DNA from: a virus
Reading direction: 5' to 3' (one strand)
Virus record (IMG/VR): IMGVR_UViG_3300042520_000697
Span: 1-34,704 of that record
DNA: 34,704 nt
Shown: positions 13,480-34,704 of the stretch, piece after piece
How positions within the stretch are numbered: the stretch's first letter is position 1
Layout: every line of letters starts with the position of its first letter
The notes under the pieces: model-generated
What the model was told of the DNA's origin: nothing
What the model saw: the letters and a program-made list of their open reading frames with translations, nothing else
Databases searched by the model: none
Position numbers and translations under genes: made by a program

Positions 13480-15099
13480 ATGGCAACTCCAGTTTTAAAC
13501 AATGGTATATTTCTACGGGATACCAACTACCAAGCTAGTTCACACGTAGACTCTTACCACTTGGTTAACATGTTGAAGGATGCAGAACCTATGGATCTGG
13601 GCCCAGTAGACCTTTGGGCTATGGCACAGAAAGTAGAGATGCCTCTTTATCAAATGTCTAGCTTTGGTGGTAAAAATGTAATCATGGTTGATAATGCTCG
13701 TGGAGAGTATAGATGGCAGACTCCAGTGTCTGTAGATCTACCTTACATCCTTGAGGATATTGAACCAGAAAATAATTTTAAAGGTATTGAAGGAACAACA
13801 TTCCGTATCAAAATCAACAGACGTGAGTTTGGACATGGTGATATCATCACTTATGACAAATATAACGGAGTTGAGATGTACATTACTGATGAAGATATTC
13901 TTCCTTTAGGAGATGCTTATATCTATACTGTACAGTTGGTAAACAATGACAACTTCAAATACTTGGATAACAAGTACTTGGCAAATGGTACTAAAGTATT
14001 CCGTAAAGGTTCTGCTCGTGGAGAATATGGTGAAAGATTCTCAGACATTACAACAAGAACAGGATTCCGTGAATTCTATAACTTTGTTGGTGGTGCTGAA
14101 GCTCACGTACATTATTCTATTTCATCTCGTGCAGATTTGATGATCAAAGGTGGTATGAATGCAGATGGTACAGTTCCTGTAACTGAAATCTGGAGAACAT
14201 TTGACAAAAACACTCAAGATCCTTCTATTACTTCATTAGAAGATATGGTTAAAGTAATGGGTAAAGATAAAGTTAAACGTGCATTTGACAACGGAGATTT
14301 ATCTAGAACATTCTTAACTGGAATGGAAGCTGCTCACTTGACTAAGATTGCTACTGACATTGAGACTTACTTAATGTGGGGACAAGGAGGTAGAGTACGT
14401 CAAGATGGTCCAGATGATATTAGATTATCTGTGGGTCTTTGGAGACAGTTGGATAACTCATTCAAAAGAGTATACAACAAAAATAACTTTACATTGGATT
14501 TATTCCGTGGAGAGATCTACAACTTCTTCAATGGTAAAGTTGAATTCCAAGGTCCAGATCCAAAACGTAGCTTAGTTGTACAAACAGGTATGGGTGGTAT
14601 GAGAATGGTAAATGAAGCTATCAGAAGAGAAGCTGTTGCATCAGGTTTACTTATTCAGGCTGCTGATATTGGTGCAATCACTGGTAAAGGTATGGACTTG
14701 AACTTTGGATTTGCTTATACTTCATATGTAATTCCATTCTTGGCAAATGTTAAGTTTGTTCTTAACCCAGCATTTGACAACATCCATACAAATGATATTG
14801 AGAACCCAATCATTGATGGTTTCCCATTATCTTCTTACTCATTCATTATCTTTGATATCACTGATAATACTAATGACAATATCTACTTATTGAAATTGTC
14901 TTGGGATAATCAATTGAAATGGTGGTATCAAAATGGTACAATGGATTACATGGGTCGTACTCAAGGATTCCAGTCTTCTGGTCAGTTCAATGGATACCGT
15001 GTAATGATGTCTCAAACTATGCCTGCAATTTGGGTTAAAGATCCAACTAAGGTATTGAAGATTGTTATGAGAAACCCAATCACTGGTGGATCATTCTAA
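13480..15099 (+). CDS. Major capsid protein (HK97-fold, crAss-like type)
   Basis: 539 residues. Landmarks include YQMSSFGGKNVIMVDN (about 58-73), FRIKINRREFGHGDIITYD (about 108-126), GFREFYNFVGGAEAHVHYS, MWGQGGRVRQDG and LVVQTGMGGMRMVNEAIRREA (about 364-384), a pattern I associate with crAss-like major capsid proteins. Length is slightly above that of the family prototypes. Codon use differs from neighbours: Arg is often CGT and Phe/Asn often TTC/AAC, where most other genes use AGA, TTT and AAT, indicating selection for high expression. A strong terminator-type hairpin follows 16 nt after the stop. It should assemble the icosahedral shell on the scaffold and portal. Confidence 0.88.
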   Translation: MATPVLNNGIFLRDTNYQASSHVDSYHLVNMLKDAEPMDLGPVDLWAMAQKVEMPLYQMSSFGGKNVIMVDNARGEYRWQTPVSVDLPYILEDIEPENNFKGIEGTTFRIKINRREFGHGDIITYDKYNGVEMYITDEDILPLGDAYIYTVQLVNNDNFKYLDNKYLANGTKVFRKGSARGEYGERFSDITTRTGFREFYNFVGGAEAHVHYSISSRADLMIKGGMNADGTVPVTEIWRTFDKNTQDPSITSLEDMVKVMGKDKVKRAFDNGDLSRTFLTGMEAAHLTKIATDIETYLMWGQGGRVRQDGPDDIRLSVGLWRQLDNSFKRVYNKNNFTLDLFRGEIYNFFNGKVEFQGPDPKRSLVVQTGMGGMRMVNEAIRREAVASGLLIQAADIGAITGKGMDLNFGFAYTSYVIPFLANVKFVLNPAFDNIHTNDIENPIIDGFPLSSYSFIIFDITDNTNDNIYLLKLSWDNQLKWWYQNGTMDYMGRTQGFQSSGQFNGYRVMMSQTMPAIWVKDPTKVLKIVMRNPITGGSF

Positions 15100-16392: not shown

Positions 16393-16548
16393 ATGGGTAA
16401 AGATATGATAAAAAGAAAAGACGGTAGTTATTCCCAGAGAGGTCTCTGGGATAACATCCGTGCTAATAAAGGTTCTGGTAAGAAACCTACTAAACAGATG
16501 CTGCAACAGGAAAAGAAAATTAAAGCAACTAATAAAAAGAAAAAGTAA
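16393..16548 (+). CDS. Small basic protein 2 with YSQRGLWDNIRAN motif (51 aa)
   Basis: The product has MIKRKDGSYSQRGLWDNIRA then NKGSGKKPTKQML and a Lys-rich end. The QRGLWDNIRANKGSGKKPT pattern is one I recall from short proteins of several environmental phages, with no known function. It is too compositionally specific to be chance. The stop (TAA) overlaps the next ATG by one base, supporting coupled translation. It carries roughly one Lys/Arg in three residues. Confidence 0.65.
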   Translation: MGKDMIKRKDGSYSQRGLWDNIRANKGSGKKPTKQMLQQEKKIKATNKKKK

Positions 16549-16760
16549 TGGAAAAAGGAAAATGTCCAAAAGGATATATGTTGTATGCAGACCCAGTAAC
16601 TGGTAAAGAAAAATGCATAACACCATCTGAATTTTATAAAGATTGGGAAAAAGAAAAGGGTAGACCTGGTATGATTAAAATGATAAATAGAAAACCTCCA
16701 AAAGGAAGAACAACTTTAGCTAAAAAAGGTGGTAGTGTAAAATCTAAAAAGAAGAAGTAA
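16548..16760 (+). CDS. Small basic protein 3 with C-terminal KKGGSVKSKKKK tag (70 aa)
   Basis: An ordered-looking N-terminal part contains CPKGYMLYADPVTGKEKC, two cysteines flanking a short hairpin, then a Lys/Arg-rich linker. The C-terminus KKGGSVKSKKKK is nearly identical to that of the protein ending at 17848 (RGGSVKSKTKKK) and similar to that ending at 18817 (KKGGAIKRKKK). Overlaps neighbours on both sides by one base. Function unknown; the shared tail suggests a common targeting or binding signal. Confidence 0.6.
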   Translation: MEKGKCPKGYMLYADPVTGKEKCITPSEFYKDWEKEKGRPGMIKMINRKPPKGRTTLAKKGGSVKSKKKK

Positions 16761-16990
16761 TGGCTGTTAAAAAAACAACAACTAAAAAAGCACCAGCTAA
16801 AAAAGCAAGTACAACAAGTATATCAATTGGACTTGGTAGTAATAAAGCTGAGATGAGAAAATGGGAAGTAGAATCTGCATTAAGTACTTTAAAAAGAGCA
16901 GAGGATATCCGTAAGGATAAAAAGATGATGACTGATATTGCAAATCTTGCTAAAGAACAAATGAATGTTTTAAAAAACTTTAGTAAGTAA
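16760..16990 (+). CDS. Small basic protein 4: Lys/Ala/Thr-rich head and helical body (76 aa)
   Basis: The N-terminal 20 residues (AVKKTTTKKAPAKKAST) resemble histone H1-like or ParB-tail basic repeats. Residues about 28-76 are an amphipathic helical region (AEMRKWEVESALSTLKRAE, then a helix to KNFSK). A disordered basic arm plus a helix is a plausible DNA-contacting architecture, but the family is not recognised. It sits in the middle of the basic gene cluster, overlapping the previous stop by one base. Confidence 0.6.
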   Translation: MAVKKTTTKKAPAKKASTTSISIGLGSNKAEMRKWEVESALSTLKRAEDIRKDKKMMTDIANLAKEQMNVLKNFSK

Positions 16991-16992
16991 TT

Positions 16993-17283
16993 ATGGCACA
17001 GGCAAAAACTAAGAAGGTAAAAGTTACTGCCGGTGGTGAGAAACATGTAGTATATAAAAAGACTACAAAAAAAGGTGAAGGAAAGGTTGGTCACATAATG
17101 GTCAACCATCCTACCAAAGATAAAGGACAGTGGGATACTATAGACTTAACTAAAAAAGGTAGAGCAAAAACAGTTAAACAAGGTGTTGCTGCAACTAAGA
17201 AGTGGCACAAAGATAATCCTGACTATAAATATAAAGGTAAAGGAAATGGGAAAGTCTCCAGCATGGCAAAGAAAAGAAGGTAA
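16993..17283 (+). CDS. Small basic protein 5 (96 aa), GKVGHIMVNHPT type
   Basis: The central pattern GHIMVNHPTKDKGQWDTIDL (about 33-52) followed by TVKQGVAATKKWHKDNPDY and a basic Gly/Lys end is one I recall from small uncharacterised proteins of environmental and Bacteroidota phages. It appears folded in the middle, with disordered basic ends. Its last 38 nt overlap the start of the next gene. Function unknown. Confidence 0.65.
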   Translation: MAQAKTKKVKVTAGGEKHVVYKKTTKKGEGKVGHIMVNHPTKDKGQWDTIDLTKKGRAKTVKQGVAATKKWHKDNPDYKYKGKGNGKVSSMAKKRR

Positions 17284-17527
17284 GAATCCAGAAGGTGGTC
17301 TTAATTCTAAAGGGGTAGCTAGTTATAGAAGAGCTAATCCTGGTAGTAAACTTAAGACAGCTGTAACTACTAAACCTTCTAAACTTGATCCAGACAGTAA
17401 GTCTGCTAAGAGAAGAAAAAGTTTCTGTGCTAGGATGAGTGGGATGAAGAAAAAACTAACAAGCTCTAAGACAGCTAATGATCCTGATTCAAGGATCAAT
17501 AAGTCTTTAAGAAAATGGAACTGTTAA
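17246..17527 (+). CDS. Small basic protein 6, KNPEGGLNSKG / DPDSKSAKRRKSFCARMSGM family (93 aa)
   Basis: From the ATG at 17246 the product begins MGKSPAWQRKEGKNPEGGLN, then DPDSKSAKRRKSFCARMSGM (about 48-67) and ends NDPDSRINKSLRKWNC. I recall this as a well-conserved short phage protein family of unknown function (a DUF). A longer reading from 17183 would add 21 residues that do not fit the family start and would lie entirely inside the preceding gene, so 17246 is preferred. It overlaps the upstream gene by 38 nt. Conserved Cys and Trp at the C-terminus suggest a specific fold or partner. Confidence 0.75.
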   Translation: MGKSPAWQRKEGKNPEGGLNSKGVASYRRANPGSKLKTAVTTKPSKLDPDSKSAKRRKSFCARMSGMKKKLTSSKTANDPDSRINKSLRKWNC

Positions 17528-17539
17528 ATTATATATACA

Positions 17540-17848
17540 ATGAAAAAAACAATTAAAACTACAAAAATGAAAAAAATGTCTAATGGTGGACAAAAAGATC
17601 CTGGTAAAGGTGGTAGAATTGCTGGTCTTGCAACTACAATTTCTGGTGCAATAGGTGTTGGAACTAAGATGCTTAGTGATGCAATTAAAAAAAGAAGAGC
17701 TGTTGTACAGGGTGCAAAAGAACTTAGAAAAGCTGATCCTAACCTGAAAAAAAAGGAAGCAATAAAAGCATCACGATATACAATTAACAATCCTACACCA
17801 GAAGCAAAAAGAGGTGGAAGTGTAAAATCTAAAACTAAGAAAAAATGA
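17540..17848 (+). CDS. Small basic protein 7 with RGGSVKSKTKKK tail (102 aa)
   Basis: The basic N-terminus with MSNGGQKDPGKGG is followed by a Gly/Ala/Thr-rich hydrophobic helix at about 26-46 (RIAGLATTISGAIGVGTKML), a charged helix (KKRRAVVQGAKELRKADPNL) and the tail RGGSVKSKTKKK. The hydrophobic helix could insert in a membrane or pack in a bundle, recalling small ejection or internal head proteins, though that is speculation. The tail matches that of the gene ending at 16760. The stop overlaps the next ATG (ATGA). Confidence 0.6.
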   Translation: MKKTIKTTKMKKMSNGGQKDPGKGGRIAGLATTISGAIGVGTKMLSDAIKKRRAVVQGAKELRKADPNLKKKEAIKASRYTINNPTPEAKRGGSVKSKTKKK

Positions 17849-18183
17849 AAAAGTGTATGTCAGGCTGTGGAGGTAAGATGATGTCAAATGGTGGTGCTAA
17901 AGTTGCCAAAATAAAAAAGATGGCAGCTGGTGGTGCTGCTGGAAAAATGATTCCTTTATATGATAATAATCCTAGAGTCTATAGTGGTCGTAGTTTAAAA
18001 AATGGGGGTTCTGCTTCACTTCCTGTTTGTAAAGGTGGTGATGTAAGAATGCCAGATGGTAGTTGTGGTAAAAGAAAATTTAAATCAGGTGGATTTAAAG
18101 ACTTATCAGGAGATGGTAAGATTACAAAAAAAGATATTTTGATCGGTAGAGGTGTTATTAAAAAAACTACTAAAAAGAAATAA
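17845..18183 (+). CDS. Small basic protein 8 with NGG repeats and an EF-hand/dockerin-like loop (112 aa)
   Basis: The Gly/Lys-rich N-terminus has repeated [K/S]-N-G-G elements (MSNGGAK, LKNGGSA), cysteines at the start (CMSGCGG), then FKSGGFKDLSGDGKITKKDI. In DLSGDGKITKKD, residues 1, 3, 5, 6, 8 and 12 match the calcium-binding loop D-x-[DNS]-x-D-G-x-[IL]-x-x-x-D of EF hands and dockerins. It ends GVIKKTTKKK. I recall short phage proteins ending with this 'DGK(I/V)T..D(I/V)L.GRGV' pattern, function unknown. Calcium binding is predicted from the loop only. Confidence 0.65.
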   Translation: MKKCMSGCGGKMMSNGGAKVAKIKKMAAGGAAGKMIPLYDNNPRVYSGRSLKNGGSASLPVCKGGDVRMPDGSCGKRKFKSGGFKDLSGDGKITKKDILIGRGVIKKTTKKK

Positions 18184-18185
18184 TC

Positions 18186-18332
18186 ATGGCTGAAAAGAAG
18201 GATAAGAAATGGATACAAAAAGCAGTTAACCCTAAACATAAAGGTTACTGTACTCCAATGTCTAAACCTACTTGTACTCCTAAGAGAGCAGCTCTTGCAA
18301 GAACTTTTAAAAAAATGGCTAAAAATAAATAA
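18186..18332 (+). CDS. Small basic protein 9, HKGYCTPM type (48 aa)
   Basis: The 48-residue product has KKWIQKAVNPKHKGYCTPMS, then KPTCTPKRAALARTFKKMAK. The KGYCTPM..PTCTP spacing of two Cys-Thr-Pro units and the basic helical end recall a short phage protein seen repeatedly in environmental phage genomes; its role is not known to me. It fits exactly between its neighbours with 2-nt gaps. It is shorter than many annotation cut-offs. Confidence 0.6.
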   Translation: MAEKKDKKWIQKAVNPKHKGYCTPMSKPTCTPKRAALARTFKKMAKNK

Positions 18333-18334
18333 TC

Positions 18335-18817
18335 ATGGCAACTAAAAAAACACAAGTTAAGAAAAGTCCTACTGGAGCTCCACTAGGTAATCCACTTAAA
18401 TTCTTTAGAGAAGGTGGAGAAAAAATAAAAGCAATGTTTAAAAATGGAGGATATAATGTTCCTAAAAATGCACCATTGCCAAGAAAAGATAATGGTGGTG
18501 GATCTGGTATGGGTAGAATGGCAGCAGATGATGCAGCATTTGATGCACTGATAAATACATCATCTGCACCAGTTAGTACACCAAAACCTTCTAAACCAGT
18601 ACCTGGTGGACCTTATGGAAATACTACTCCTGGTCATATACCATTAAGAGGTTATGGAAGCCAAAATACAACTCCACCAGATAGTGTAAGAATGAGAGAT
18701 TTAGTTCCTCCTGATTTGGGTCCTATAAAAGGAGGAGGTTTTGGAAATACTACTCTTGGTCATACAACTCCTTTGATTAGAAAAAAAGGTGGAGCTATAA
18801 AAAGAAAAAAGAAGTAA
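18335..18817 (+). CDS. Small basic protein 10, Pro/Gly-rich with KKGGAIKRKKK tail (160 aa)
   Basis: The longest of the basic set. A basic N-terminus contains FKNGGYNVPKN (about 36-46), then a long disordered Pro/Gly/Thr/Ser region with two related units, PGGPYGNTTPGHIPLRG (about 89-105) and KGGGFGNTTLGHTTPLIRK (about 133-151), then the tail KKGGAIKRKKK. The internal GNTT(P/L)GH repeats and the shared tail with two other proteins of the cluster suggest one protein class with a common C-terminal signal. Function unknown. Confidence 0.6.
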   Translation: MATKKTQVKKSPTGAPLGNPLKFFREGGEKIKAMFKNGGYNVPKNAPLPRKDNGGGSGMGRMAADDAAFDALINTSSAPVSTPKPSKPVPGGPYGNTTPGHIPLRGYGSQNTTPPDSVRMRDLVPPDLGPIKGGGFGNTTLGHTTPLIRKKGGAIKRKKK

Positions 18818-18820
18818 GAC

Positions 18821-19519
18821 ATGCTTAATAGTACTATTACCATAAAGATGAAACAGAGGCTTAACAAGCTTGACAGTCAGGATTATGATAATATAAACTG
18901 CTGGCAAATTGTTGAGTCTTTTAATAAAGCTCAGGTAGAATGGGTTAGAAGACAACTTCATGGTCTTAATATAGTTAAAGAAGGTGATGAACAATCTACT
19001 CGTAGAAAAGATGACTTACAAAAGTTATTAATAAAAGAACCGTTTTCCACAATAAAAAAAGATCAATACTATGAGGGAAACATTCCTCAAGATTATTTAC
19101 AGTGGAAAAGAGTAGATGTCTATGCTAAAAAAGAATGTTGTGATAAAAGAAGAATGAATGTTTATCTTGCAGAAGAAGGTAATTTAAATCAACTTCTAAG
19201 AGATAAATTAAAGCAACCAAGTTTTGATTGGGCAGAAACATTTGCTACTTTGATTATTGATACAGTACACGTTTATACAAACAATGAGTTTGATGTATCT
19301 GATGCACAACTTACTTATTATAGACAACCTATTAAGATACAAATAAACGGGTGTTCAGATCCCTACACGGGAATCATTTCTACTACAGAAGTACAATCAG
19401 AATTCAAAGATGATATAATAGAATTAATAATAGACGAAGCAGTAAGTATCTTAGCTGGAGATATAGAATCTGGAAATCAGTTCTCTAGAACACAAGAATC
19501 TGCAGAAAGAAGTAACTAA
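18821..19519 (+). CDS. Head-tail connector-like structural protein
   Basis: 232 residues. The N-terminus reads MKQRLNKLDSQDYDNINCWQ, followed by EAFNKAQVEWVRRQLHG-like (here ESFNKAQVEWVRRQLHG, about 28-44). The middle has PQDYLQWKRVDVYAKKECC (about 89-107) and a beta-rich C-terminal half with YYRQPIKIQING. I recall this pattern from structural proteins in Cellulophaga- and crAss-like phages. A helical N-terminus with a beta domain, between capsid and tail genes, suits a connector or ring protein under the portal. The exact ring assignment is inference. It is 2 nt upstream of the ferritin gene. Confidence 0.6.
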   Translation: MLNSTITIKMKQRLNKLDSQDYDNINCWQIVESFNKAQVEWVRRQLHGLNIVKEGDEQSTRRKDDLQKLLIKEPFSTIKKDQYYEGNIPQDYLQWKRVDVYAKKECCDKRRMNVYLAEEGNLNQLLRDKLKQPSFDWAETFATLIIDTVHVYTNNEFDVSDAQLTYYRQPIKIQINGCSDPYTGIISTTEVQSEFKDDIIELIIDEAVSILAGDIESGNQFSRTQESAERSN

Positions 19520-19521
19520 TT

Positions 19522-20136
19522 ATGGAAGCAAAACCAAGATCTTTAAAAAGACCAACTAATACAGTTGTGGGATTAGAAAATAAACATATGGATATTTCTA
19601 AACCTAGTGAAGGTACTACAACAGAAGTTCCTACAACTAAAACAAAGAATCCTCTACTAGATGATTCATGTGCTAGTTATCTTAACTATAGAATACAACA
19701 AGAAGAATATTCAGCAAGAATATATCTATCAATGTCTATGTGGTTAAACAATGAAGGTTACATGGGTGCAGCAGCATTATGGAGAACATACTCAGATGAA
19801 GAAATGAAACATGCTGATATAGCAAGAAAGTATATGTTGTCATTTGGTATCCAACCGGCTACACCTAGATTAGATCAACCTAAACAAACTTTTTCAGGTC
19901 TTCCTGAAATTATTAAGATGTCATTTGAACATGAAATAGAAGTATCTAAACAAATAAAAGAAATGGCTAATCATGCATTGTCTGATGGTGATCATATGTT
20001 GTATGAATTATGTCTTGCTTATCTAAAAGAACAAGTGGAAGAACATGATAAAACTCAAACTTGGATGGATAAACTTGAAGCTTTTGGTACAGATAAGATT
20101 GCTCTTAGATTACTTGATAATGAAATGGCCGGATAA
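19522..20136 (+). CDS. Ferritin (FtnA-like, ferroxidase centre intact) with N-terminal extension
   Basis: 204 residues. Residues about 50-204 align by eye along the whole four-helix ferritin core with E. coli FtnA. The ferroxidase ligands are all present: Glu61 (QEEYSA), Glu94 and His97 (EEMKH), Glu138 (FEHEIE), Gln171 and Glu174 (KEQVEEH), corresponding to FtnA Glu17, Glu50, His53, Glu94, Gln127 and Glu130. It should oxidise Fe(II) and store Fe(III) in a 24-mer cage. Residues 1-50 are a basic/Thr-rich extension with no FtnA counterpart. It is not a Dps. It sits 2 nt after a connector-like gene and before promoter P4, inside the virion gene block, so a virion-associated role or host iron/oxidative control are both open. 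Confidence 0.9.
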   Translation: MEAKPRSLKRPTNTVVGLENKHMDISKPSEGTTTEVPTTKTKNPLLDDSCASYLNYRIQQEEYSARIYLSMSMWLNNEGYMGAAALWRTYSDEEMKHADIARKYMLSFGIQPATPRLDQPKQTFSGLPEIIKMSFEHEIEVSKQIKEMANHALSDGDHMLYELCLAYLKEQVEEHDKTQTWMDKLEAFGTDKIALRLLDNEMAG

Positions 20137-20150
20137 ATTTTTTTAAAAGT

Positions 20151-20182
20151 TTTGATATTTCAAAAACTTTTAGTATATTATA
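20151..20182 (+). promoter_or_regulatory. Promoter P4 for the abundant structural protein
   Basis: TTTG (20151-20154), 19 nt, TATATTA (20174-20180) in CTTTTAGTATATTATA. This is the best match in the window to the Bacteroidota promoter layout. It lies 32 nt before the ATG at 20213 with an A-rich leader. Confidence 0.7.
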
Positions 20183-20212
20183 GTATATATTTATTAACTA
20201 AAACAAAAAACA

Positions 20213-21790
20213 ATGAGTTATTTTAATCATGCCTTTAGAAAAACCTTTGTGGGAACAGAAGGTTATACTGATCTTAATGGTGGTCAACTTGGTACTACTG
20301 GAAATATTTTTGAAGGTGGTCAATTTGGATTTGTTAATCCTAGAAACTGGACTGTAGTTCCAACAATTTATAATGCTGTTACGGTTGGTTGTTGTAACCT
20401 TATTCTTGCTGCAGGTTCAATTTATCAAAATGATAAAATTGGTCCTTTCCACGGAGGATACTTAGAATCTAACAAGTCTAAGGAAATTAATCCAAGATAT
20501 GTAAACAAGTTCTACCGTGTAGATCCATGTTTACCACAAAATAATGTTATCCATATTGGTAACACAGCTTGGACTGATAGTGTTGCATTATCATTATCTA
20601 CGGCTGGTGCTGGTGATCCAGGTGTTAACTTAGTTGATGGTGTGTATACAGACATTCCATTATCTGGTGCAGGCACTGGATTAGTAGTTAATATCACTGT
20701 AGTAGGTGGTGTAGTTACTTTTGTAGAAATTGTAAATGGTGGTTCAGATTGGACAACAGCTGATACAGCTACAACTAGTGATGAACTTATTCCTGAAGAT
20801 GGTGATGGTACACAACCTATATTTGTTGTAACAGCTGGTGTTGGTGCTAACTGTTGTAAAGAATTTTTCTGTGGTGAGACTTATACATTACGTGTTGATG
20901 TTAAAGGTTCTCCTGCATTAAGATTACTTAACCACAACTCTTACATCATTGCTTCTGCATATGGTGGATGTTGTCCTGATGGTGCAATTGCTCCAGTAGT
21001 AATTGACTCTACATTAATCTTCAAACAATGGGCTGAGGCTATTACAAGATATCCAGTTATCTCTCCATTTATGCAAATCATCTTAGTTGATGAGACAGGT
21101 ACTCCTTGGTATGCACCAGGAACAAGTGCTTCTTTCTTAGCTGCTAATGGTGTTGATACTTGGGATCATTATGTATCTCCAGGACACACTCCTGATGGTT
21201 GTGCTGGATTAGTTCTTAATGGAGCTTATGTAGATACTAAATTCCAAAACTGTACATTCCAAATCTCTGACTTCTATGAATTAGAGCCAGTAAGATTGTA
21301 TGCTTCTGAAGTAGACTTAAATGGTGATCCATGTTTGTTTGATGGAGTATGTGTTGTTACAGAATGTGAAGGAAGACAAGCAATGGGATTAGGTGAGTCA
21401 GTTGCAAGAGATATAATTTTATCTGAACAATACAGACAAAACTTCTTCCATTCAGACTTCCGTATCCGTGAGATTACTCAAGGTTACAGTGTGTTTGATT
21501 TTATCAATAGAAATACTTTGTATACAAGATATTTCTTGCAACACAATGTTCCACGTTTCAATAACCCAACCAGTACATTTGATAATGATCAATACTTGTT
21601 AGAAGTTATCACTTGTGATCGTATTGCTGCATTTGAAACTTTTGTTGATGCATGGTTAGAAGAGTGTTCTCAGTGTACAGGTATGGAAATTGAAGGATGT
21701 GTTGAACCGGTTTGTGAACCAGTTTATAACTTCCCAGTTTTAACAACTAATTTCACTCCTAACGTAACAGTAATTTGTCAGACTCCTTAG
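20213..21790 (+). CDS. Abundant Cys-rich virion structural protein with inserted beta domain
   Basis: 525 residues. It begins MSYFNHAFRKTFVGTEGY and later has FIFKQW-like SPFMQIILVDETG, SVFDFINRNTLYTRYFLQHN (about 424-443) and many cysteines, often paired (GCCNL, NCCKEF, GGCCPD). Residues about 131-210 carry a Gly/Val-rich unit (VDGVYTDIPLSGAGTGL ... VVTFVEIVNGGSDW), a module I recall as a frequent insertion in phage structural proteins. Arg codons include CGT and Phe/Asn TTC/AAC as in the capsid gene; it has its own promoter and a strong hairpin after it, so it is probably highly expressed. A tail or head-decoration role is open; the family is not identified. Confidence 0.6.
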   Translation: MSYFNHAFRKTFVGTEGYTDLNGGQLGTTGNIFEGGQFGFVNPRNWTVVPTIYNAVTVGCCNLILAAGSIYQNDKIGPFHGGYLESNKSKEINPRYVNKFYRVDPCLPQNNVIHIGNTAWTDSVALSLSTAGAGDPGVNLVDGVYTDIPLSGAGTGLVVNITVVGGVVTFVEIVNGGSDWTTADTATTSDELIPEDGDGTQPIFVVTAGVGANCCKEFFCGETYTLRVDVKGSPALRLLNHNSYIIASAYGGCCPDGAIAPVVIDSTLIFKQWAEAITRYPVISPFMQIILVDETGTPWYAPGTSASFLAANGVDTWDHYVSPGHTPDGCAGLVLNGAYVDTKFQNCTFQISDFYELEPVRLYASEVDLNGDPCLFDGVCVVTECEGRQAMGLGESVARDIILSEQYRQNFFHSDFRIREITQGYSVFDFINRNTLYTRYFLQHNVPRFNNPTSTFDNDQYLLEVITCDRIAAFETFVDAWLEECSQCTGMEIEGCVEPVCEPVYNFPVLTTNFTPNVTVICQTP

Positions 21791-32195: not shown

Positions 32196-34704
32196 ATGGC
32201 AAAGAAACAGGGTATACAAGATACGTCTAAAGTATTTACTAATTCTTTTTCAAAAGGATTAAATAAAGATTCTGATCCTTCATTTGTATCTGAAGGAATG
32301 TGGACTCATGCAATTAATGTAGTTAACAATACTATTGAAGGAGATGTTAATACATTATCTAATGAAATAGGAAATGAACCATGTGGTGTTACTGGACTAT
32401 CAATGCCAGCTACAGCAACAGACAAACATATAGTAGGTGCTATATATCTTTATTCAGATAAATGGGTAATATTTACTGCAGGACATAATTCACAAGGACA
32501 AAGAATAACTTCTGAAATAGGGTTGTATGAAGAGGACTCTTGTAGATACAGAGAAATTGTACAAGACCCATGTTTAAACTTTGATAAAAGATATCTTATA
32601 TCTGGAGCATCTAGAGAAAAAGAAGATTGTTCTTGGCAAGTGTATTGGGCAGATGGATTTAATCCAGATAGATATTTAAATATTGGAGATCCTCAAACAT
32701 GGCCAACATCTGATTATCAATGGTTAGGTGGTTTAAATATGAACTATTATTCTAATGGTACTGTTGTAAATTTTCTTTGGCCAGGTGTTCCTTGGTATGA
32801 AAAAGTAACTCCAGCACAACCATGTGAATTTACAACATATATAAACTCACTTAATTGTGATGATACCAGACTTGCTAGATTAATGGAGACACCATGTCTT
32901 AATTTAACACTAGGTCAATCAGGTGGAACATTAGCCAATGGAACTTATTTTGCAGTTATTGCATATAGTATTAAAGGACAAAGAGTAACAGATTGGTTTT
33001 CACAAAGTAACTTTCAGTTTATCTATACTGTAAATGATCTAGAGGGTTCGTTAATATTAGATGTAGAAGTTGATTCAGAAAACTTTGATGAATTTATTTT
33101 GGTAATTGTAGAAGCTACAAATCAACAAACTGTAGCTAGTCAAATGGGAATCTATTCTACTAATACAAATAGAATTGCAATTGATCAAATTAATCCTAGT
33201 CTTATAAAAGTTCCTTTAGAACAATTACCAATTCAAACTCCTGTATTTGAAACATCTGATCAAATAGCAGAAGTAAATGATTATTTATTACGAGTAGGTC
33301 CTAGATCTAAATTTGATTTTAATTATCAACCACTTGCTAATATGATTAGCACAAGATGGGCAAGTGTTGAGTATCCTGCTGATTATTACATGAAGGGAGG
33401 TAATAAAACAAATTATCTTAGAGATGAAGTTTATACTTTCTACATTAGATGGATTTATGATACAGGAGATAAGTCTTCTTCATATCATATTCCAGGACGT
33501 GCTCCAAGACAATTTCAAATTCCAGGAGGACCTGCATTAAATGAAACATCTGATTTTTTATTAAATCCTGATAAAAATATATTAGCAACAGATGATCAAG
33601 TATTTGAAGTTTATAATACAGCTACAATAAATATAGCACCGGGTCCTGTTGTAGGTACAACAACTGATGATGGAGGTACTGTAGTTGCAATTGGAGAAAT
33701 GGGTTATTGGGAATCAGAAGAAATATATCCAGATAACAGACCTGATATTTGGAATCCAAGTAGATATTGTTGGACAGGACCTGCTGCTCAACTACTACCA
33801 GGACAGAGTGTCGGTAATTATGATTTGTGTGGTTTACCAATAAGACATCATAAGTTTCCTGAAAATTTTATAAATAACAGTCCTGCTACACAAGCATTAC
33901 ATTTTAGACCAAATTCAAATACAACAAGTGCTGGTGCTGATGAATATTTTATTAGATTAATGGGAGTTTATTTTGAAAACATAATGCTTCCAAAAGATCA
34001 AAATGGAAATGATATTCCTGGTATAGTTGGTTATGAAATTCTTAGAGGTTCTAGAGAAGGTAATAAAACTATTATTGCCAAAGGAATGGTTAATAATTTT
34101 AGAAGTTATAAAATAAGAAATAATATTCCTTCTGATGTAATTGGACTTTATCCAAACTATCCTTATAATACTATTCTTCCATTAAATAATTCTAATACAC
34201 CAGGTGATCATAATTACTTGTATAATGATCCATATATTAGAAATCAAGATGCTGCAGGAAATGATTTAGATCAAAATATACCTAATGATATATTTACATT
34301 TCATTCCCCGGATACAATGTTCCGTACTCCATTTCTCTCTACCACAGAGTTTAAATTATATGGAACATTAAGTGGTTATGCCGATATAAATTTTCAAGAA
34401 CCTAATGGTCATCCAAAATGGAAACTATTAAGTGATGATGTAATTCTACCAATGATAGTTGCTGGTGTAGCTGAAGCTATCATATCTATGTTAGGTAAGA
34501 GAACAGTAAATGAACCAATTATAAATTCATATACAGAACAAGTTAGAGGAACAGGAGGAATTAATCCAATCAATCTTAGTTTTGGTCCAACTGGTTCAGG
34601 AACATTTGTTGGAGGTAATAGTACACCTGGAACTGGTGGTCAAATTGACGATGCACTTGCACAAAACAATGCTTTAGGGAATATTGATAATGCATTAACT
34701 AATC
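32196..34704 (+). CDS. Tail muzzle / tubular-stabilization protein (crAss-like), 3' end outside window
   Basis: The frame is open from the ATG at 32196 to the right edge (836 codons seen). N-terminal features FTNSFSKGLNKDSDPSFVSE and GMWTHAINVVNNT, then SEIGLYEEDSCRYREIVQDP, DCSWQVYWADGFNPDRYLNI and later GYEILRGSREGN and FTFHSPDTMFRTPFL, form the series I associate with the large muzzle protein at the tip of crAss-like tails, the counterpart of T7 gp12-/P22 gp10-like tubular proteins. It closes the distal tail and gates DNA release. It is 2 nt after the ring gene. About one further third of a typical length may lie outside the window. Confidence 0.8.
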   Translation, partial: MAKKQGIQDTSKVFTNSFSKGLNKDSDPSFVSEGMWTHAINVVNNTIEGDVNTLSNEIGNEPCGVTGLSMPATATDKHIVGAIYLYSDKWVIFTAGHNSQGQRITSEIGLYEEDSCRYREIVQDPCLNFDKRYLISGASREKEDCSWQVYWADGFNPDRYLNIGDPQTWPTSDYQWLGGLNMNYYSNGTVVNFLWPGVPWYEKVTPAQPCEFTTYINSLNCDDTRLARLMETPCLNLTLGQSGGTLANGTYFAVIAYSIKGQRVTDWFSQSNFQFIYTVNDLEGSLILDVEVDSENFDEFILVIVEATNQQTVASQMGIYSTNTNRIAIDQINPSLIKVPLEQLPIQTPVFETSDQIAEVNDYLLRVGPRSKFDFNYQPLANMISTRWASVEYPADYYMKGGNKTNYLRDEVYTFYIRWIYDTGDKSSSYHIPGRAPRQFQIPGGPALNETSDFLLNPDKNILATDDQVFEVYNTATINIAPGPVVGTTTDDGGTVVAIGEMGYWESEEIYPDNRPDIWNPSRYCWTGPAAQLLPGQSVGNYDLCGLPIRHHKFPENFINNSPATQALHFRPNSNTTSAGADEYFIRLMGVYFENIMLPKDQNGNDIPGIVGYEILRGSREGNKTIIAKGMVNNFRSYKIRNNIPSDVIGLYPNYPYNTILPLNNSNTPGDHNYLYNDPYIRNQDAAGNDLDQNIPNDIFTFHSPDTMFRTPFLSTTEFKLYGTLSGYADINFQEPNGHPKWKLLSDDVILPMIVAGVAEAIISMLGKRTVNEPIINSYTEQVRGTGGINPINLSFGPTGSGTFVGGNSTPGTGGQIDDALAQNNALGNIDNALTN

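Follow-up and report, generated by a model that had tools for sequence, protein, structure and literature searches.

Identification of a ferritin gene in a crassvirus structural module

The window, i.e. the whole stretch of 34,704 nucleotides of viral DNA that was analysed (IMG/VR record IMGVR_UViG_3300042520_000697), contains on its plus strand an open reading frame of 204 predicted amino acids at positions 19522 to 20136, which starts 2 nt past the stop of the preceding ORF. The product matches the Pfam ferritin domain PF00210 (E 1.6e-24, 86.9 bits against a cut-off of 24.5) and was assigned to the FtnA-type ferritins from this match, its AlphaFold2 fold and its invariant ligands. Three parts can be distinguished: an N-terminal tag, MEAKPRSLKRP (codons 1-11, 19522 to 19554), common to the Dps proteins found at the same place in relatives; a Thr-rich linker (residues 12-46, 19555 to 19659) with low pLDDT, variable in relatives; and the ferritin domain itself (residues 47-204, 19660 to 20133), with the ligands E61, E93, E94, H97, E138, E170, Q171, E173 and E174.

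The location of the gene in a structural module, proposed in the earlier note on this DNA, was borne out by the crassvirus genes on the same strand of the window. The major capsid protein is encoded at 13480 to 15099 (Crass_capsid PF23898, E 4.5e-30), and the final gene, at 32196 to 34703 and truncated by the window end, matches the crassvirus muzzle protein (PF25731, E 1.2e-20). The gene directly upstream of the ferritin (18821 to 19519, plus strand) had been called connector-like and placed 2 nt away; the spacing is correct, and the product is identified more precisely as a homologue of the crassvirus tail ring protein. It aligned in tblastn with the ring protein of csAssE-Sib (E 5e-9) and with structural proteins of the Cellulophaga phages phi17:2 and phi4:1 (E 1e-6), and matched phrog_29507, a virion structural protein (E 6.5e-11). 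Flavobacterium or Cellulophaga are likely hosts of slot-bearing phages, as the named phages with a related ring gene infect these genera.

The ring gene forms the upstream border of the site, hereafter called the slot. The downstream border is the gene of a 525-amino-acid structural-module protein (20213 to 21790, plus strand), the order of genes here being conserved in relatives. This protein had a weak profile match to FpV4 gp17 (E 3.3e-5, probability 72 %) and no match to phi17:2 gp63; profile searches of the PDB with the ring and downstream proteins yielded no usable match. The slot gene is separated from the one that follows by an AT-rich gap (20137 to 20212, plus strand), the point at which relatives with a ferritin, a Dps or an empty slot regain DNA similarity in alignments. 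The predicted folding of the gap was barely better than that of shuffles (z -1.19). The promoter which the note had placed downstream of the ferritin gene comes down to a consensus match, with 13 promoter-like sites counted in 18300 to 20400 against 8.8 (sd 2.6) in shuffled sequence. The region before the ring gene (16548 to 18817) holds a run of small ORFs, several of them Lys/Gly-rich and strongly variable among relatives, and is possibly a second variable region.

Conservation of the ferritin

In a phmmer alignment to E. coli FtnA (9bye), which had no gaps and an offset of 44, E61, E94, H97, E138, Q171 and E174 corresponded to FtnA E17, E50, H53, E94, Q127 and E130. E93, E170, E173 and Y68, aligning to FtnA E49, E126, E129 and Y24, were also intact. 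We take these residues to be those of the FtnA ferroxidase site (sites A, B and C, with the third-site glutamates). None of the ten varied among the 40 distinct viral ferritins of alignment A1, from which the ferritins of faecal 'Bacteriophage sp.' records were excluded, or among the 18 distinct ferritins of the slot survey described below. The AlphaFold2 model (pLDDT 83.7) has the five-helix ferritin fold, with predicted helices at residues 48-77, 81-107, 127-154, 158-188 and 192-203 corresponding to the four-helix bundle and a short fifth helix, and its top Foldseek match was the ferritin of V. cholerae (3qz3, TM 0.94 on the target, E 4.3e-11).

The ferritin domain is under strong purifying selection, and the tail is looser: dN and dS (NG86) against three relatives were 0.0065 and 0.47, 0.0052 and 0.37, and 0.065 and 0.78 for the domain, and 0.054 and 0.21, 0.118 and 0.42, and 0.26 and 0.74 for the 45-codon N-terminal tail. 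The statement of the earlier note that all six ferroxidase ligands are present and that the gene is not decaying is confirmed by the alignment with FtnA, the invariance of the ligands and the purifying selection, and a decayed gene can be rejected on the same grounds. That the enzyme is intact is well supported by the catalytic residues, and it is presumably active.

Distribution and phylogeny of the viral ferritins

A scan of IMG/VR gave 56 loci with relatives of the ferritin, some of them from near-identical contigs. In 37 of these, the ferritin lies directly behind a ring gene, which answers the question of whether the same ferritin is found beside connector genes in related phages; 15 are beside giant genes, three upstream of a portal homologue and one behind a muzzle homologue and one further gene. 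Crass_capsid PF23898 was matched by 32 of the 39 ferritin records that were searched (of 56), 31 of them over the cut-off. Thirteen of the 15 giant-gene loci were searched for a DFDID-type motif, which we take to be an RNA polymerase motif. It was present in the directly upstream ORF of ten and in a downstream ORF of L056, and absent from L043 and L048. The giant gene of L041 is homologous to phi14:2 g066, annotated as a catalytic RNA polymerase subunit (E 2e-73). A second ferritin lineage adjoins a virion RNA polymerase (vRNAP) gene, and a scan of further phages for this site returned only two loci, both already in the known set.

In the phylogeny, 52 viral rows formed one clade apart from 35 cellular ferritins (SH-aLRT 100). 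The latter were the first 35 rows of a pattern scan (74 loci with a match, L142 included), among whose listed titles none names Bacteroidota, and they included three faecal scaffolds (L057-L059). A recent host-gene insertion is rejected by the separation of the viral clade from the sampled cellular ferritins. The case that the note had named as refuting, a single recent insertion with no conservation in relatives, does not hold in view of the 56 loci, the single clade and the ring tree described below. On this sequence evidence the viral ferritin is old and conserved in its phage group. One ferritin of the viral clade was found in a bacterial MAG, on a 5.5-kb Tissierellales contig (L142) that is probably a misbinned phage contig. 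The ferritins of L057-L059, which are unverified phage records (faecal 'Bacteriophage sp.' scaffolds), group with the cellular ones, and these scaffolds are probably bacterial DNA.

Contents of the slot behind the ring gene

The slot was surveyed by scanning for ring proteins and inspecting the stretch up to the next gene; the scans share contigs. Counted per distinct ring protein (n = 161), the slot held a Dps-like protein in 119 cases, a ferritin in 16, both in one and another ORF in one, was empty in 19 and was cut off in five. The scan with the window-type ring protein gave, among the matches listed (80 of 478 relatives), 61 Dps-like proteins, eight ferritins, ten empty slots and one that was cut off. 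From the scan with a divergent ring protein (78 loci), 40 Dps-like proteins, 18 ferritins, one slot with both, 14 empty, one other and four cut off were obtained. A third scan used a Dps-like query, and all 80 matches listed (of 289) were within 18 nt of the end of the ring gene or overlapped it. The slot is more often occupied by Dps than by ferritin, a point that goes beyond the earlier note.

Dps was present in three of 39 ferritin records, each time directly behind the ferritin. Ferritin was found in two of 50 further records, both of them ferritin-slot loci, and in none of the other 48, whose slots held a Dps (41) or another ORF (1) or were empty (6). No gene is annotated in the slot of csAssE-Sib, FpV4 or phi17:2. 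Since empty slots exist, the slot gene is dispensable; ferritin as an essential content of the slot is rejected, Dps being more numerous and empty slots occurring.

Four loci (L013, L014, L019 and L235) carry ferritin and Dps in tandem within one slot. In the first three only the ring-adjacent ferritin is tagged and the Dps is without a tag, and in L235 both proteins open with a common QKIxRP-type sequence. The slot of L282 (3732 to 3869) contains a 45-codon Lys/Ala/Pro-rich ORF in place of a ferroxidase.

The Dps-like slot protein

All six slot Dps proteins that were scanned matched DUF5856 and phrog_858 ('starvation-inducible transcriptional regulator'), a family represented in T4-like phages and phiR1-37. 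Searched against structures, the profile matched Dps proteins, best NapA (E 4e-4). Foldseek ranks 1-36 for the model were all Dps or Dps-derived with probability 1.00, but with E values of at least 5e-3 and TM scores of about 0.4-0.6. The residues H63, H75, D90 and E94 (H-12-H-15-D-4-E), presumably the inter-subunit Dps ferroxidase ligands, were invariant in the 46 aligned proteins and intact in 119 of 121 survey proteins, with gaps at the last three positions in the remaining two; NapA aligned with the same spacing. By profile and ligands the alternative slot protein is Dps-like, with its own ferroxidase ligands intact, and it is presumably active. Among the matches listed for its DUF5856 relatives (60 of 96 records), the match begins behind the tag. 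The DUF5856 protein g280 of phage phiR1-37, annotated in GenBank as 'phage structural protein', differs from the slot Dps in having no tag.

The N-terminal tag and linker

In the ferritin model, pLDDT is below 50 for residues 1-21 and reaches 81 by the block 41-50. Residues 1-46 have a net charge of +3 and contain eight Thr. An opening M..xRxLKR tends to occur in both the ferritin and the Dps proteins of the slot; the linker behind it varies and is disordered in the models. In the first alignments, R.LK[RK] was found within residues 1-14 of 43 of 46 Dps proteins and 16 of 40 ferritins; divided by site, the A1 ferritins with this motif were 16 of the 24 at the ring slot and none of the 16 at other sites. 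The vRNAP-side ferritins, like phiR1-37 g280, are untagged. In the wider survey the strict motif was present within the first 45 residues of 80/121 Dps proteins and 7/18 ferritins, and many of the remaining proteins had looser openings, e.g. RNLLKR or QKIxRPS, with none visible in a few. L8 and K9 of the tag were invariant in all 46 aligned Dps proteins.

Among the ORFs scanned, the tag was confined to the slot. R.LKR just after a Met in the first 40 residues occurred in 87 of 2236 ORFs (136 loci), and all 87 were slot proteins, three that were initially unlabelled being two variant ferritins and a Dps cut by the contig end. Records of 118 and 115 kb had exactly one tagged ORF each, of 166 and 141 ORFs respectively, when scanned in 20-kb pieces, at whose borders an ORF start could escape. 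A chance motif is rejected by both results, and a general packaging tag on many virion proteins was not seen in these two records when scanned in this way. Among named phages no tagged protein was found; one search gave four faecal scaffolds, and the ORFs of the three that were read were without it, and in another no record matched 80 % of the tagged Dps.

When the ferritin and Dps families were compared with hhalign, the tag alone aligned, weakly (probability 15.7 %, E 0.0017). The similarity of the ferritin tag to the tag of the nearest-ring Dps was 29.9, against 22.9 (sd 1.9) in shuffles that disregard relatedness among the phages, and none of 2000 shuffles reached it. The tag peptide was common to ferritin and Dps across ring proteins of 63-71 % identity (L020/L255, L030/L363, L018/L257). 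Its codons were mostly the same ones (AGA, TTA, AAA), with Leu written with several codons; as they are little varied, conservation at the nucleotide level is a possibility.

Exchange of the slot gene

Within a 6.7-kb stretch, blast aligned the loci L226 and L228 in three pieces (2.4, 2.3 and 1.2 kb) with identities of 97.9-99.2 %. Their DNA is identical through the end of the ring gene, the spacer and the tag codons, continues as a ferritin gene at one locus and a Dps gene at the other, and is identical again just before the next gene. About 250 upstream bases of L226 (2308 to 2561) gave no alignment to L228. The same pattern was seen at greater distance between the window and L064, and in L069 the site is empty. 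A tree of 177 ring-protein rows requires 32 changes of slot state; this tree came from a short search and has several long branches, and its starred branches alone force 11 Dps, seven ferritin and five empty changes. The sequences give good support to a modular slot, in which the cage would be swapped behind the tag or the gene removed.

Two GIY-YIG homing endonuclease-like genes lie directly behind the ferritin of L046 (10524 to 12629) and may have helped it to move.

Discussion

The slot in the structural operon of this uncultured crassvirus group would encode a tag of about ten residues, a disordered linker and the subunit of a cage, either an FtnA-type ferritin, as in the window, or a Dps, and recombination would exchange the cage behind the tag or delete the gene. 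As ferritin and Dps are exchanged behind one tag, iron oxidation at a given place appears to be what is selected. In our judgement it is just probable that this is a slot for swappable cargo: the N-terminal tag would stay the same and dock whichever iron-oxidising cage follows it, the surface or interior of the particle being the likeliest place. The tag would bring the cage to the assembling particle, most likely near the tail ring or portal or within the head, and Fe2+ would be oxidised and mineralised near the phage genome, which would limit Fenton damage at assembly, within the particle or upon entry. More tentatively, ferritin and Dps could be interchangeable virion cargo that is carried by a fixed tag targeting capsid or ring, is exchanged by recombination when the host or redox conditions change, and guards the genome from such damage in the particle or at entry.

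A location in the particle is favoured by the linkage to the ring gene, the tags that track the ring lineage, the vRNAP-side ferritin site, the GenBank note on phiR1-37 g280 and the parallels with T4 and P1 DarB; the untagged members elsewhere and the dispensable slot gene disfavour it. The N-termini of ferritin and Dps point outward in known structures, and 24 or 12 tags would therefore be exposed on the assembled cage. Assembled cages of these proteins measure about 9-12 nm. In phi-crAss001, RNA polymerase proteins are packaged as virion cargo and the constrictions of the tail are described as below 5 nm (PMC10172136); the cages would be too wide for these, and they could enter the cell only as subunits or unfolded. 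Cages remaining in or on the particle would face no such requirement.

The earlier note had suggested that the N-terminal extension is a tether. This stands for the first 10-12 residues, which are kept across the domain swap; the other approximately 35 residues are a variable linker. The extension behaves like a modular tether, its opening being retained when the ferritin domain is replaced by Dps. A constant short N-terminus on differing bodies is also what distinguishes a capsid targeting sequence of the T4 type, and by sequence the slot proteins have it, more loosely in part of the family. As described for T4, diverse internal proteins have the conserved targeting sequence in common, with about ten N-terminal residues kept and bodies that differ between related phages (PMC3012670, PMC9026906), and the cargo is mostly dispensable there too. 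In T4, however, several proteins carry the sequence, as a propeptide that gp21 cleaves off, whereas here there is one tagged protein per phage and the cargo is a predicted iron-oxidising cage; the likeness drawn here is one of organisation. P1 DarB, from its description in PMC9024508, offers a further parallel.

Encapsulins with ferritin-like cargo, the parallel drawn in the note, share an HK97-fold shell, the kind of cargo and a short terminal peptide with the present system, and an encapsulin with bacterioferritin cargo would likewise be a shell within a shell (PMC8346489). This parallel fits less well than the T4 targeting sequence, since the loading peptides of Family 1 encapsulins are given as C-terminal in the same source, and an encapsulin system proper is rejected: here the tag is N-terminal and the shell is that of a phage, built from crassvirus major capsid protein. 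The likeness of the tag to the encapsulin signal LTVGSLRR (PMC5959871) is too short to mean much.

The slot ferritin resembles bacterial FtnA in its domain, ferroxidase ligands and predicted fold, and differs from it in the tag and linker and in belonging to a viral clade that is separate from the 35 cellular sequences of the tree. Ferritin-superfamily enzymes are found in other viral genomes, as Dps and Mn-catalase in Gratiaviridae and as a K02217 ferritin on gut viral contigs; a fixed slot, a tag or swapping is not described for them in the excerpted text of these sources (PMC8008677, PMC10098016).

The strongest rival to docking on the particle, which we consider unlikely, is that the basic tag is a DNA-binding tail holding the cages on phage DNA in the cell or head, with the ring gene merely a neighbour. 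E. coli Dps does bind DNA through a Lys-rich basic N-terminal tail, Dps-like proteins are the majority in the slot, and the tag, with its 3-4 basic residues, is modelled as disordered. Against this reading, Leu and the spacing are conserved besides the charge (L8 and K9 in 46/46), the tail of the window ferritin has a net charge of just +3, and the tags track the ring lineage.

It is rather unlikely that the ferritin or Dps is a soluble product of an auxiliary metabolic gene that controls iron and peroxide levels in the cytoplasm of the infected cell and is unconnected with the particle. In other phages, genes for Dps, Mn-catalase and DNA-binding ferritin-like proteins have been assigned to oxidative stress (PMC8008677, PMC6669764), and phages with empty slots are viable; such a role leaves unexplained why a common tag survives the domain swaps and why the Dps loci, 80 of 80 among the matches listed, are directly behind the ring gene. 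That the tag serves only to anchor recombination or to set the start of translation, its peptide binding nothing, would agree with breakpoints just after the tag codons and with the little variation of these codons, but is very doubtful given a peptide motif common to ferritin and Dps in phages with ring proteins of only 63-71 % identity, the several Leu codons in the tag and the lack of any other tagged ORF in the two 115-118 kb records.

Docking of a tagged cage on or in the particle is the reading that we retain. The idea of a tether is strengthened and narrowed to about ten residues, and the finding widens from one ferritin to a tagged, swappable ferroxidase slot. Tagged phage cargo is already known; in the excerpted text of open-licence PMC papers, an iron-oxidising cage as a class of cargo was not found reported, nor was a ferritin or Dps in crAss-like phages or such a swap. 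At one phage locus, a single tag is followed by either of two distantly related enzymes that share their chemistry, and the exchange itself allows the function under selection to be read off as the delivery of iron oxidation to one place. The finding also suggests a function for DUF5856, a family without an assigned function in Pfam. Should the tag direct proteins to the virion, protection against redox damage would be packaged by crassviruses, and its ten residues could readily be used to load proteins into their particles.
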